A stretch of DNA of 64,000 nucleotides, taken from positions 372,001 through 436,000 of the forward strand of contig NZ_JTDW01000005.1 in assembly GCF_000943565.1 (NCBI RefSeq), written 5' to 3'. The position numbers and the translations under genes were made by a program. Of the stretch, positions 4,389 through 9,648 are shown piece by piece; the stretch's first letter is position 1; each line of letters starts with the position of its first letter. The DNA is from Neotamlana sedimentorum (GTDB lineage Bacteria; Bacteroidota; Bacteroidia; Flavobacteriales; Flavobacteriaceae). The notes under the pieces were generated by a model. That model saw only the letters and a program-made list of their open reading frames with translations. It was not told the origin of the DNA and did no database searches.

Positions 4389-5054
4389 TTACTTTATAGG
4401 GAAATTAAAATAGGTTTTAGGAAAAGGCTCACCGCGTAAAGTAAAATGCCACCATTCTTTAGAGTAACTTCTAAATCCGTGCTTTTGCATAACACGCTGA
4501 AGCAATATTCTATTATCATGCTGCTTTTTGGTTATTTTGCCATACGTAACCCACGATTGTTGTCCAAAAAAATCAAATGGACTTCCCATATCTATTGGCC
4601 TTCCCGTATCGGCATCAATTATAGTTAAATCGACAGTACTACCCCGACTATGTCCCGATTTTGAAGCAATATAACCGTTTTTAAACAAGTTTTTTTTCTT
4701 TTCCTTCGGATAAAAAATCGATTTATTTATAGTATCATCTAATGCTTTAGCCCATTTAACAAAATGATTAACGGCTTGCTGCGGTCGGTAACCGTCATAA
4801 ACTTTTAAACATAAGTTTTGTTGTTGAAGTTCTTCTTGCACCAATTTTAAAGCTTCTGCTGCTTGTTTAGTTAAAATTAATTGGTTTGCAAAATACCCTT
4901 CAACGTGTTTACCTAAAAAATTGTTGGTAGTGTTATACCTTAATTCAACATCTAAATCTGGTATAACATCTTTTACGTAAACAAATCCATTAGGTAACTG
5001 TCCAAAGGATAATAAACCAATTAAACAGATTAAAACAAGTAATAAATTCTTCAT
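4389..5054 (-). CDS. D-alanyl-D-alanine dipeptidase, VanX/DdpX type (peptidase M15D)
   Basis: A 221-residue protein with an N-terminal signal peptide (residues 1-19, ending SFGQ), so probably periplasmic. The M15D zinc site is complete: His135 and Asp142 in SGHSRGSTVD and His203 in EWWHF, with catalytic Glu200. Such enzymes cut D-Ala-D-Ala and in Gram-negative bacteria recycle cell-wall dipeptides; in enterococci VanX acts in vancomycin resistance. No vanH, vanA or regulator genes are nearby, so a housekeeping peptidoglycan role is more likely. It is transcribed alone and convergently with the helicase. Confidence 0.9.
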   Translation of the reverse strand: MKNLLLVLICLIGLLSFGQLPNGFVYVKDVIPDLDVELRYNTTNNFLGKHVEGYFANQLILTKQAAEALKLVQEELQQQNLCLKVYDGYRPQQAVNHFVKWAKALDDTINKSIFYPKEKKKNLFKNGYIASKSGHSRGSTVDLTIIDADTGRPIDMGSPFDFFGQQSWVTYGKITKKQHDNRILLQRVMQKHGFRSYSKEWWHFTLRGEPFPKTYFNFPIK

Positions 5055-5130
5055 AATTATGCTAATTTAGAAAATATATTAAGGCATACTCAATAAACCT
5101 ATTATTATACTTGATTTTATTGCATAAAAA

Positions 5131-5157
5131 AACCGAGTTCCCTCAAACTCGGTTTTC
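5131..5157. terminator. Bidirectional intrinsic terminator
   Basis: A 9-bp perfect stem (AACCGAGTT with AACTCGGTT) with T runs on both sides when read on the respective strand; the minus-strand T run is the longer. It could end a leftward small RNA from about 5268, or rightward read-through from the helicase gene. Confidence 0.8.
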
Positions 5158-5163
5158 TCTCAA

Positions 5164-5195
5164 TTTGCTTTAATTTTTTATGTAGGTTAGATTTG
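5164..5195 (+). promoter_or_regulatory. Candidate promoter: TTTG, 20-bp spacer, TAGATTTG
   Basis: TTTG at 5164-5167 and TAGATTTG at 5188-5195 are separated by 20 bases, the canonical Bacteroidota -33/-7 arrangement. No protein start follows, so it points to an RNA gene beginning near 5201. Confidence 0.6.
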
Positions 5196-5274
5196 GGGAA
5201 ACCGCATCAACAACATAATGCAAATATTAATTAATTAATCCATTGAACTAAAAAGTGTGTTATTTAGTACACTT

Positions 5275-5282
5275 CAAATATA
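5275..5282 (-). promoter_or_regulatory. Leftward -7 element (TATATTTG) with no gene behind it
   Basis: Minus-strand TATATTTG. A transcript from here would run about 140 nt to the strong minus-strand terminator at 5131-5157. It contains one tiny frame, MLLMRFPQI. No -33 element; the tandem repeats lie where an activator could bind. Confidence 0.4.
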
Positions 5283-5300
5283 AAACTCTTAAAAACATAA

Positions 5301-5330
5301 AAACGACTAAAAGCGACTAAAATCGATGAA
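5301..5330. repeat. Three degenerate 10-bp tandem repeats
   Basis: The units are AAACGACTAA, AAGCGACTAA and AATCGATGAA, one helical turn each. An inverted copy of the first unit, TTAGTCGTTT, is at 5393-5402. The spacing suits a protein binding one face of the DNA. Confidence 0.6.
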
Positions 5331-5350
5331 ACGCGTATTTTTTTAACATT

Positions 5351-5382
5351 TTTCGTCGATAAAATGTATTTTATCGACGAAA
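5351..5382. repeat. Perfect 15-bp inverted repeat with 2-base centre
   Basis: Arm TTTCGTCGATAAAAT at 5351-5365 and its exact reverse complement at 5368-5382, separated by GT. No T run follows on either strand, so it is not a standard terminator. It is either an operator-like site or the core hairpin of an RNA. Confidence 0.75.
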
Positions 5383-5430
5383 TGCACAGTTGTTAGTCGT
5401 TTGGATGCGCTCTAACTAAATTTAATGTAT

Positions 5431-5456
5431 AAAAAAACACCTCGAAATCGAGGTGT
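5431..5456 (-). terminator. Intrinsic terminator, strong on the minus strand
   Basis: An 8-bp stem (ACACCTCG/CGAGGTGT) with a 4-base loop, followed on the minus strand by seven T. On the plus strand the T run is interrupted. Confidence 0.7.
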
Positions 5457-5699
5457 CTTTCTCTAACTAACTAACCAAAAATATGATTTACTTTCTCTAA
5501 GTTTAAAGTAACCACTCAATAAACTTTTAATAGGAACGTAATTACTATCTGTATAACAATACTTGTGCCAAACTTTAATTTATAAGATTATATCTCTAAT
5601 TATTAATAAAAAGTTTTAGCCACACTTATTTTATTTAATATCCTACTAGCTTAATAATTTAAATTATAAGATATTTGCTCACCTTAAAATTATAGAGAT

Positions 5700-6401
5700 A
5701 TGAAAAAAATAACAATAACGCTTGTTACTTTAATAACACTAATTTCTTGTGGAAAAACAGAAAAGGATTTAACAGTAAATGGAACTATAAAAGGTCTAAA
5801 AAAAGGGACGGTTTATCTTAAAAAAATAGAAGATACACTATTAATTACTGTAGATAGTTTAGTAATAAACGGCGACTCCAATTTTAGTTTACAAAGTGAC
5901 CTAGAATCTCCCGAAATTTTCTTCTTAGATTTAGATAAACATAGTGCAGAACAAGATCGAATTAAATTTTTTGCAGATAAAGGTGTTACAGAAATTAATA
6001 CTAGTCTTAAAAATTTTGTTTTCGATGCCAAAATTAAAGGCTCTAAGCAACAAGAGATTTATGAAGAATATTTATTAATGATTTCTAAAGTTAACAATAA
6101 ACGATTAGAGCTAATTAAAGAAAAATTTGAGGCACAACGCGCTGGAGACTCTATTGCTTTAGACTCTTTAGTTAATCTTGATAATGGCTTATTAAGAAGA
6201 CGTTATTTATATACAGTTAATTTCGCCTTAAACCACAAAGACAGTGAGGTTGCTCCATATTTAGCGCTTTCTGAAATTTATAACGCGCAACTCAAATTTT
6301 TAGATACCATTAACCAAACGCTTACGCCAGATATTAAAAACTCTAAATACGGTAAAGAGCTAGAAGCTTTTATTAAAATTATAAAAGAAACCGAAAAATA
6401 A
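5700..6401 (+). CDS. DUF4369-type lipoprotein
   Basis: A 233-residue protein with a lipoprotein signal peptide; the lipobox LISC puts the lipidated cysteine at residue 17. Residues 24-115 fit DUF4369, a beta-rich domain common in Bacteroidota and often fused to thioredoxin-like AhpC/TSA domains. Here no CxxC or thioredoxin fold follows, only a helical C-terminal half (residues 120-233), as in stand-alone members. Function unknown; the location should be the periplasmic face of a membrane. It is transcribed alone and ends in a clear terminator. Confidence 0.78.
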   Translation: MKKITITLVTLITLISCGKTEKDLTVNGTIKGLKKGTVYLKKIEDTLLITVDSLVINGDSNFSLQSDLESPEIFFLDLDKHSAEQDRIKFFADKGVTEINTSLKNFVFDAKIKGSKQQEIYEEYLLMISKVNNKRLELIKEKFEAQRAGDSIALDSLVNLDNGLLRRRYLYTVNFALNHKDSEVAPYLALSEIYNAQLKFLDTINQTLTPDIKNSKYGKELEAFIKIIKETEK

Positions 6402-8007: not shown

Positions 8008-9597
8008 ATGAGTTTTTTAAAAGAAATACAACGCAGAAGGACTTTTGGTATTATTTCTCACCCAGATGCAGGTAAAACAACATTAACAGAGAAGCTATTA
8101 CTTTTTGGTGGTGCTATTCAAGAAGCTGGCGCTGTAAAAAGTAATAAAATTAAAAAAGGCGCTACCAGTGACTTTATGGAAATTGAGCGCCAACGTGGTA
8201 TCTCGGTGGCTACCTCTGTTTTAGCATTTGAGTATAACGGTACAAAAATAAACATTCTAGATACACCTGGACATAAAGATTTTGCTGAAGATACCTTTAG
8301 AACTTTAACAGCCGTAGATAGTGTAATTGTAGTTATTGATGTGGCAAAAGGTGTTGAGGAACAAACTGAAAAGTTGGTTGAAGTTTGCCGTATGAGAAAC
8401 ATTCCTATGATTGTATTTATTAATAAACTTGACCGTGAAGGTAAAGATGCTTTTGATTTATTAGATGAAGTTGAACAAAAACTAGGTTTAAAAGTGGCTC
8501 CTTTAAGTTTCCCTATTGGCATGGGTTATGAGTTTAAAGGTATTTACAACATTTGGGAGAAAAATGTAAACTTATTTAGTGGAGATAGCCGAAAAAATAT
8601 TGAAGAAACTATTGAAATTTCTGATTTATCTTCTCCTGAATTGGATGAATTAATTGGAGAAAAATCGGCTAACACCTTAAGAGAAGAAATAGAGTTAGTT
8701 GAAGGTATATACCCAGAGTTTAATAAAACGGATTACTTAGAAGGCAATCAACAACCTGTATTTTTTGGTTCGGCATTAAATAATTTTGGAGTTCGCGAAT
8801 TATTGGATTGTTTTGTTGAAATAGCACCAAAACCAAGAGCTAAACAAAGTGAAGAACGTTTGGTAAAACCAGATGAAAAGAAATTTACAGGCTTTGTTTT
8901 TAAAATTCATGCAAACATGGACCCAAATCATCGTAACCGTTTAGCTTTCGTTAAAATTGTTTCTGGTGAATTTAAACGTAATACGCCATACCTTCATGTA
9001 AGAAATAATAAAAAACTTAAATTCTCGAGCCCAAATGCGTTTTTTGCTGAAAAGAAAGAAATTGTAGATATATCGTATCCTGGAGATATTGTTGGCTTAC
9101 AAGATACAGGGAGTTTTAAAATTGGTGATACCTTAACAGAAGGAGAAATTTTAAACTATAAAGGCGTTCCAAGTTTTTCTCCTGAGCATTTTAGATATAT
9201 AAACAATGCTGACCCAATGAAATCGAAACAGCTTTTTAAAGGTATCGATCAATTAATGGATGAAGGTGTAGCACAACTTTTTACCTTAGAACTTAACGGT
9301 AGAAAAGTAATTGGTACCGTTGGCGCTTTACAATACGAGGTAATTCAATATCGATTAGAACATGAATATGGTGCAAAATGTACTTACGAAAACTTAAATG
9401 TTCATAAGGCCTGTTGGGTGGATCCAGAAGATCCAAAATCTGATGAATATAAAGAGTTCTTAAGAGTTAAACAGCGCTTTTTAGCTAAAGATAAGCAAGG
9501 ACAGTTGGTGTTTTTATCAGACTCTCCATTTTCACTGCAAATGACTCAGCAAAAATACCCGAGTGTAAAATTACATTTCACATCGGAGTTTGAATAA
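8008..9597 (+). CDS. prfC: Peptide chain release factor 3
   Basis: A 529-residue translational GTPase with the RF3 arrangement. G1 is SHPDAGKTTL (residues 17-26), G3 is DTPGH, G4 is NKLD; the RF3-like domain follows with no EF-G domain IV. It recycles RF1/RF2 from the ribosome after peptide release using GTP and acts in the cytosol. Length and domain order are as usual. It has its own -7 element and ends in a strong terminator, so it is monocistronic. Confidence 0.96.
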   Translation: MSFLKEIQRRRTFGIISHPDAGKTTLTEKLLLFGGAIQEAGAVKSNKIKKGATSDFMEIERQRGISVATSVLAFEYNGTKINILDTPGHKDFAEDTFRTLTAVDSVIVVIDVAKGVEEQTEKLVEVCRMRNIPMIVFINKLDREGKDAFDLLDEVEQKLGLKVAPLSFPIGMGYEFKGIYNIWEKNVNLFSGDSRKNIEETIEISDLSSPELDELIGEKSANTLREEIELVEGIYPEFNKTDYLEGNQQPVFFGSALNNFGVRELLDCFVEIAPKPRAKQSEERLVKPDEKKFTGFVFKIHANMDPNHRNRLAFVKIVSGEFKRNTPYLHVRNNKKLKFSSPNAFFAEKKEIVDISYPGDIVGLQDTGSFKIGDTLTEGEILNYKGVPSFSPEHFRYINNADPMKSKQLFKGIDQLMDEGVAQLFTLELNGRKVIGTVGALQYEVIQYRLEHEYGAKCTYENLNVHKACWVDPEDPKSDEYKEFLRVKQRFLAKDKQGQLVFLSDSPFSLQMTQQKYPSVKLHFTSEFE

Positions 9598-9610: not shown

Positions 9611-9648
9611 AAAAAAAGCCTTTAAAATTAATTTTAAAGGCTTTTTTT
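9611..9648. terminator. Bidirectional terminator between prfC and the DUF3467 gene
   Basis: A fully symmetrical stem centred at 9629/9630 (AAAAGCCTTTAAAATT and its complement) with A and T runs outside, so it works for both convergent genes. The last bases touch the stop codon of the DUF3467 gene. Confidence 0.88.

Follow-up and report, generated by a model that had tools for sequence, protein, structure and literature searches.

Candidate tandem small RNA genes and an associated repeat site in an intergenic gap of Neotamlana sedimentorum and related marine Flavobacteriaceae

The intergenic gap and its features

The window analyzed here is a 64,000-nucleotide stretch of the Neotamlana sedimentorum contig NZ_JTDW01000005.1. 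Near one end it contains a gap between a gene for an M15 D-Ala-D-Ala dipeptidase (5054-4389, minus strand) and a gene for a DUF4369 protein (5700-6401, plus strand). Both were assigned with Pfam, which covered four flanking proteins of the window and two further proteins; the names AlkB-like, hydrolase, secreted and lipoprotein, used below for other genes, were assigned by eye. An earlier, sequence-only reading had held that no protein gene explains the gap, and this was borne out: no open reading frame of at least 40 amino acids overlaps 5055-5699, so a protein-coding reading was rejected. The features listed in that reading were all present in the DNA. On the plus strand there is a TTTG (5164-5167) followed by TAGATTTG (5188-5195), and on the minus strand a TATATTTG (5282-5275). 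There is also a perfect 15-bp inverted repeat (arms 5351-5365 and 5368-5382), an outer inverted pair (5301-5310 with 5393-5402), a series of CGACTAAAA-type tandem repeats beginning at about 5301, and a hairpin at each end (5129-5156 and about 5431-5465). Absent from that reading was the fact that most of 5130-5388 is conserved DNA. The 303-nt segment folded better than 100 shuffled sequences on both strands (z -5.0 and -4.8), a result that does not tell which strand is the RNA.

Comparison with related genomes suggests two leftward small RNA genes in tandem, A and B, of which the segment holds the downstream part; B is preceded by a probable control site (Table 1). The probability of this reading is estimated at about 0.65. 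The gap, which is uncharacterized in the literature searched, is predicted to hold small RNA gene B, the site that controls it and the terminal part of A, with the functions proposed below.

Table 1. Predicted features of the gap (positions in the window)
Feature	Position	Strand	Basis
Small RNA B, about 145 nt	5127..5270	-	Alignment of window and 15 relatives; 77-sequence covariation; G-U cells
B promoter box TATATTTG, TAnnTTTG type	5275..5282	-	Comparison
B 5' hairpin ACUAA/UUAGU	5244..5271	-	97.6% of cells paired, 77 sequences
B unpaired, nearly invariant AAUGGAUUAAUUAAUUAAUA; proposed seed	5225..5244	-	Alignment
B stem-loop 2 AUUUGC/GCAAAU, apical CCCCAAAUCUA	5163..5225	-	Covariation set
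B terminator hairpin, loop UUGAGGG	5129..5156	-	10 of 13 pairs with double changes
Proximal upstream element: AAATGTTAAA, R3 CGTTTCATCGA, R4 TTTTAGTCG 20 bp on	5303..5351	-	75 loci
Distal upstream element: R1 and R2, within palindrome 5351-5382	5353..5386	-	75 loci
Small RNA A, about 115 nt, 5' end inferred	5431..5545	-	Model R3 match 5432-5548
A sigma-54-type promoter TGGCAC-N5-TTG	5557..5570	-	Comparison

In the 16 sequences that were oriented along the minus strand (the window and 15 aligned relatives), the leftward block consisted of a TAnnTTTG box in 16 of 16, a core of 132-148 nt, and a hairpin followed by a U-run. The box was also found in 76 of the 77 named loci with upstream sequence, among the matches listed. 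The 5' end of B was placed a few nucleotides past this -7 box, and the match of model R1 in the window covers 5128-5274. The proposed fold was well supported among the 77 sequences listed: 96.0% of cells were paired, compared with 31-55% when the fold was slid along the alignment, and 16 pairs had double changes, compared with a mean of 7.9 in shuffled alignments, none of 500 of which reached as many. The terminator contributed ten of these pairs, the inner stem four and the neighborhood of the CCC loop two. In the 5' hairpin changes were few, with none on both sides of a pair, and the AUUUGC/GCAAAU stem likewise hardly varied across the 77 sequences, so that most of the covariation falls in the terminator, where it informs least on function. 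With its U-run, the covarying terminal hairpin is predicted to be an intrinsic terminator; its UUGAGGG loop was present in 77 of 77 B sequences among the matches listed. The motif CCC[CT]AAATCTA was found in 60 of the same 77, and its three C columns were at least 90% conserved. Wobble cells were far more often G-U than A-C (200 versus 39, or 142 versus 39 without the three outer terminator pairs), an excess that favors the minus strand as the RNA. Covarying stems between related flanking genes, which had been proposed as a check on a structured RNA here, were thus found, in the minus-strand RNA B. The 77 sequences are the window and 76 named loci (set A5), and the 76 loci had been selected with part of AAUGGAUUAAUUAAUUAAUA; the 15 BLAST relatives had not been so selected.

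The neighborhood of B indicates that it does not depend on the gene that follows. In 36 of 52 loci B is directly followed by a convergent gene, named AlkB-like by eye, and in 13 by the M15 gene. Since the downstream neighbor varies, B is not simply the leader of the M15 gene. We infer that B is an autonomous small RNA gene, transcribed from its own promoter and with a three-part fold and a terminator. A side observation is that the unpaired stretch of B (5244-5225, minus strand) contains the start-stop series AUG-GAU-UAA, which is kept in most members; a coding reading of this minimal frame was rejected, as it is lost in two of them (L015 and L304).

Distribution of A and B

A DNA search of 60 genomes, including that of N. 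sedimentorum, found the segment in 15 of the 59 relatives at E below 1e-20. Three genomes of the same genus matched all of 5130-5470, and the other relatives matched part or all of about 5130-5394. Of the 299 genomes of the family, 98 matched model R1 at E 0.01 or better. Across the order, model R2 had matches in 11 of 395 genomes at E 0.001, all of them in the family of the window; none of these 11 was from genus g147, which to judge from its many species may be Flavobacterium and for which 13 listed entries had no match. A pattern scan gave at least 119 stretches, and 80 of these (L051-L130) were scanned for B, of which 78 had a strong match and two (L067 and L091) did not. Set A5 contains 76 of the 78, as L077 and L126, both truncated, were left out, and the statistics on the region upstream of B use 75 of the 78. 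Among the matches listed, carriers of B included Winogradskyella, Algibacter, Lacinutrix, Olleya, Bizionia and Psychroserpens, as well as Gelidibacter, Mangrovimonas, Seonamhaeicola, Tamlana and Flavivirga. Within the N. sedimentorum genome model R2 found B once, and a repeated mobile palindrome was rejected on this ground; the other match was at chance level (E 5.9) and overlaps the B terminator on the other strand.

Six divergent members (L304, L305, L306, L315, L318 and L319) were fetched by the model and not by the motif pattern. In L306 and L318 stem 2 has changed to UUUAC/GUAAA with compensating changes that keep the fold, and both retain AAUGGAUUAA, CCCUAAAUCUA and UUGAGGG. AUGGAUUAA and the UUGAGGG loop are retained in these two and in L315 and L319. 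The AU-rich stretch is changed and the CCC motif missing in L304 and L305, and in L305 the terminator loop is changed too. L305 and L315 have the exact box; in the other four it deviates, mostly as TATATTTA, which weighs slightly against the main reading. That L304 and L305 are real members of the B family is supported by the presence of A just upstream.

The predicted RNA A consists of variable stems, a GGTTAGTTAGTTAG tail (5476-5463) and a terminator (5457-5431). Many loci were found to contain related units, in which a sigma-54-type box is followed by variable stems, the conserved GGTTRGTTAGTTAG tail and a terminator. The box (TGGCAY-N5-TTG) precedes 72 of the 74 A matches in named loci, among the matches listed. 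These include 23 of the 25 A matches outside the model, which itself starts after the box, although two of these 25 (L056 and L077) had previously been found by the box. Of the 65 A loci that a regular expression had picked out, 47 were used together with the window as the set from which A was modeled (A6). Model R3 has only 4 base pairs because A6 was aligned without structure and because four of its loci (L066, L070, L081 and L118) end inside the terminator. A is predicted to be a second leftward small RNA, transcribed from a sigma-54-type promoter and ending at its own terminator.

A and B occur together. In 88 of the 98 family genomes with B, A was found within 4 kb upstream of B on the same strand, and at none of the 117 A places used was it nearby on the other strand from B. 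The list of A places contained the model matches listed down to 7.2e-6 and three weaker ones beside B that were added by hand (G011, G111 and G225); weaker places elsewhere were left out, a choice that cannot lower the 88 of 98 but confines the opposite-strand result to the 117 places. Strong A matches (E 1e-8 or better) were present in 75 genomes, one of which (G218) lacked B. At E 0.001 there were A matches in 162 of 299 genomes, most of the weak ones of which were taken as chance. Start-to-start distances between A and B fell mainly into classes of 250-500 bp (32 genomes), 1250-1500 bp (30) and 2000-2250 bp (11), and many loci of the 1250-1500 bp class have a gene between A and B that appears by eye to be hydrolase-like. 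A has been multiplied in some genomes, to two to four copies. Tandem arrays with three or four copies were observed at L083, L113 and L127 and in genomes G094, G220 and G307.

The repeat site upstream of B

Upstream of the B box, the AAATGTTAAA block is flanked by four TTTCATCG-type direct repeats. These form two pairs, with a spacing of 21 bp in one and 20 bp in the other. The arrangement is well conserved among the matches listed. R4 and R3 are 20 bp apart in 66 of 75 loci, R2 and R1 are 21 bp apart in 58 of 75, and R3 and R1 are 51 bp apart in 61 of 75. TGTTAA lies between the repeat pairs in 73 of 75, and the distance from the end of R3 to the end of TAnnTTTG is 47-48 bp in 74 of 75. These data suggest that the four-repeat site is probably an activator site.

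The perfect palindrome of the window overlaps this site. The 64 kb contain two places with an inverted repeat that has arms of at least 15 nt and a spacer of 2-6 nt, and because no such repeat arose in any of 30 dinucleotide shuffles the palindrome is not a product of chance. The other place, 9611-9648, is an 18-bp perfect inverted repeat just after a gene that ends at 9597, and is probably a two-way terminator. In the 75 relatives listed, 46% of the cells at the palindrome site were paired, compared with 41% in shuffled sites, and none of the 75 kept 12 or more of the 15 pairs. By the refuting condition that the sequence-only reading had itself set, the palindrome is not the RNA stem it had been taken to be. 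It is instead the form that the outer half of the four-repeat DNA site, with its fixed geometry, takes in this genome, and together with the 10-bp tandem repeats it is the local version of R1-R4.

LytTR-type regulators bind pairs of direct repeats that are spaced by about two helical turns and lie upstream of the promoter. The B site is like LytTR-regulated promoters in having paired direct repeats in this position, and differs from them in its core, TTTCATCG. Direct repeats two helical turns apart would fit a regulator of this type. The genome has 14 LytTR matches; autoregulation was rejected, as the B upstream element was found at none of the 12 LytTR loci scanned, and the proposed regulator class therefore rests on the repeat spacing and the general LytTR architecture.

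A search of the N. sedimentorum genome for the upstream-element pattern with at most 3 mismatches found 31 matches, which is no excess over the 28 of its control. A 50-bp matrix of the proximal element, for which the training set itself scores -3.9 to 68.0, was run on the window, on the loci of 30 of the 31 pattern matches and on some other loci. Within the window the B site alone scored (45.5; next -1.3). Among the 30 pattern-match loci a second locus, L174 (L174:1480-1800, which is G000:C12:375091-375411), scored 54.7, compared with 45.5 for B and 6.2 for the next best. Seven further TTTCATCG sites (L170, L173, L178, L188, L194, L195 and L199) appeared promising by eye and were not claimed as regulon members because they scored 6.2 or less.

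At L174 the B-type element precedes a predicted mRNA whose leader contains two GTAGACCCAAATCTAC hairpins (CCCAAATCTAC hairpins), followed by an open reading frame of 42 amino acids (MNFASNLPEQP...) that had no Pfam match. This leader and B have the CCC-AAAUCUA motif in common. Open reading frames of 42-43 amino acids and of the same kind were found at L229, L232 and L233, and similar ones were also visible by eye at L209-L211. In more distant relatives (L221, L235, L236 and L238) a B-type element was seen before genes that look by eye like those of secreted proteins or lipoproteins, which suggests a wider regulon. As a genome-wide element, CCCAAATCTACC was not clearly enriched (27 matches with at most 1 mismatch, versus 23 for the control); apart from two exact copies at L244 there was no clear excess, and it was rejected. 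At that locus (G000:C12, about 113532-113748) two TTGCCCCAAATCTACCATRAACTTAACCTACTTATG copies, 205 bp apart, lie directly after terminator-like hairpins, which has the look of a dispersed element.

Function, alternatives and known systems

The sequence-only reading had taken the segment for one rightward RNA, about 260 nt long, or for an overlapping antisense pair, with the palindrome as an RNA stem. A small structured RNA was indeed indicated, but its strand, size and anatomy are different: it is leftward and of about 145 nt, and in place of two overlapping antisense RNAs there appear to be two tandem leftward ones. The terminator hairpins described at both ends are present, but the right-hand one would end A and not B. 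The plus strand does fold better than shuffled sequence and does contain a promoter-like match; this match, TTTG-N20-TANNTTTG, which had been called canonical, occurs once in the window compared with a mean of 1.25 in 20 shuffles, and is therefore at chance level. With a spacer of 18-22 nt it survives in 14 of 76 relatives among the matches listed, and the rightward TAGATTTG is the reverse complement of a conserved CAAAUCUA inside RNA B. As the palindrome is not kept and the G-U pattern favors the minus strand, the rightward RNA is contradicted by the comparison and we give it almost no credence. Hardly better placed is the idea that B is the 5' leader, or attenuator, of the M15 dipeptidase gene. 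In 50 of 52 loci the M15 gene is indeed found no more than 2.6 kb downstream of B and on its strand, but B ends in a terminator and the gene that directly follows is convergent in most loci, and on these grounds the leader was rejected.

The best supported function is that B is probably a trans-acting small RNA under a dedicated activator that pairs through its AU-rich stretch. Under this model A and B would both be transcribed. A dimeric, LytTR-like regulator would bind the direct repeats two helical turns apart and switch B on, and B would then act in trans: the unpaired AAUGGAUUAAUUAAUUAAUA would base-pair with AU-rich regions at the translation starts of target mRNAs and alter their translation or stability. 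A would respond to another signal, by way of sigma-54 together with an enhancer-binding protein. The proposed seed is a low-complexity AU sequence, and L304 and L305, the most divergent members, have an altered version of it. CsrB/RsmZ-type RNAs act as decoys, and B could conceivably do the same, its CCC-AAAUCUA loop mimicking the small-protein mRNA leader and capturing, or titrating, an RNA-binding protein or RNA; we regard this as possible but rather unlikely. The conservation of the loop motif and the occurrence of the proximal B element before the L174 leader are in its favor, but each B molecule has a single such loop, the lack of clear enrichment of CCCAAATCTACC in the genome gives it no support, and the CCC motif is missing in L304 and L305. 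Less likely still is a mutual titration of A and B, in which the invariant GGUURGUUAGUUAG tail of A and AUUAAUUAAUUAAU of B would form an AU/GU helix of 14-15 bp. This helix was predicted in all 10 loci shown of 49, with a mean over the 49 of -10.6 kcal/mol compared with -4.7 and -4.5 when either strand was shuffled, although the four-base periodicity of both stretches makes shuffling a weak control here. A and B are inherited together and are syntenic, and the pairing in L305 and L306 was better than in 196 and 194 of 200 shuffles, respectively. It was modest in L315, L318 and L319 (24, 24 and 14 of 200 shuffles as good) and no better than shuffles in L304 (137 of 200 as good), no compensating changes were seen, and 336 of 8520 genome windows of 30 nt paired as well with A. 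Equally doubtful is the broader proposal that A and B form one unit, in which sigma-54 and repeat-activator signals would be weighed RNA against RNA through the pairing tails, with B sharing the loop motif of the mRNA leader.

Neither RNA reached the gathering score of an Rfam 15 family. None of the 7 Rfam 15 matches in the window fell within 5000-5700, and the best below-threshold scores were 27.9 bits (5000-5700) and 25.7 bits (5400-5600), each against a cut-off of 54. The literature search yielded no description of A or B by title or by the start of the abstract. To our knowledge, small RNA regulation in Bacteroidota is little charted outside a few model species. The GacA-controlled RNAs RsmY and RsmZ have a dedicated, highly conserved upstream activator site and a loop motif common to the co-regulated RNAs. 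B resembles them in having a dedicated conserved upstream site and a loop motif common to co-regulated RNAs, but its site has direct repeats two turns apart and not the palindrome of GacA, its loop is C-rich whereas theirs carry GGA, and the second gene with the B element is a small-protein mRNA. The Qrr RNAs of Vibrio are sigma-54-dependent siblings. A is like them in its -24/-12-type promoter and its multiplication to 2-4 copies in some genomes, a likeness of promoter and copy number, and unlike them it is found in a different phylum and in tandem with an unrelated small RNA, B. Within the Flavobacteriaceae, the nearest paper found (PMC9723704) reports the Rfp small RNAs of Flavobacterium psychrophilum, including Rfp18, as independent, structured and conserved, and describes Rfp18 as widely conserved in Flavobacterium. 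The predicted B would be alike in being an independent, structured and conserved small RNA of the family.

Since the A/B pair is carried by many related marine bacteria, it is probably a real regulator. It would provide two clearly bounded and conserved small RNAs, inherited together across a large marine group within the Flavobacteriaceae, and because an activator-type site and a sigma-54-type promoter have been defined, the predicted sigma-54 target, the activator regulon and the targets of the small RNAs are all directly testable.
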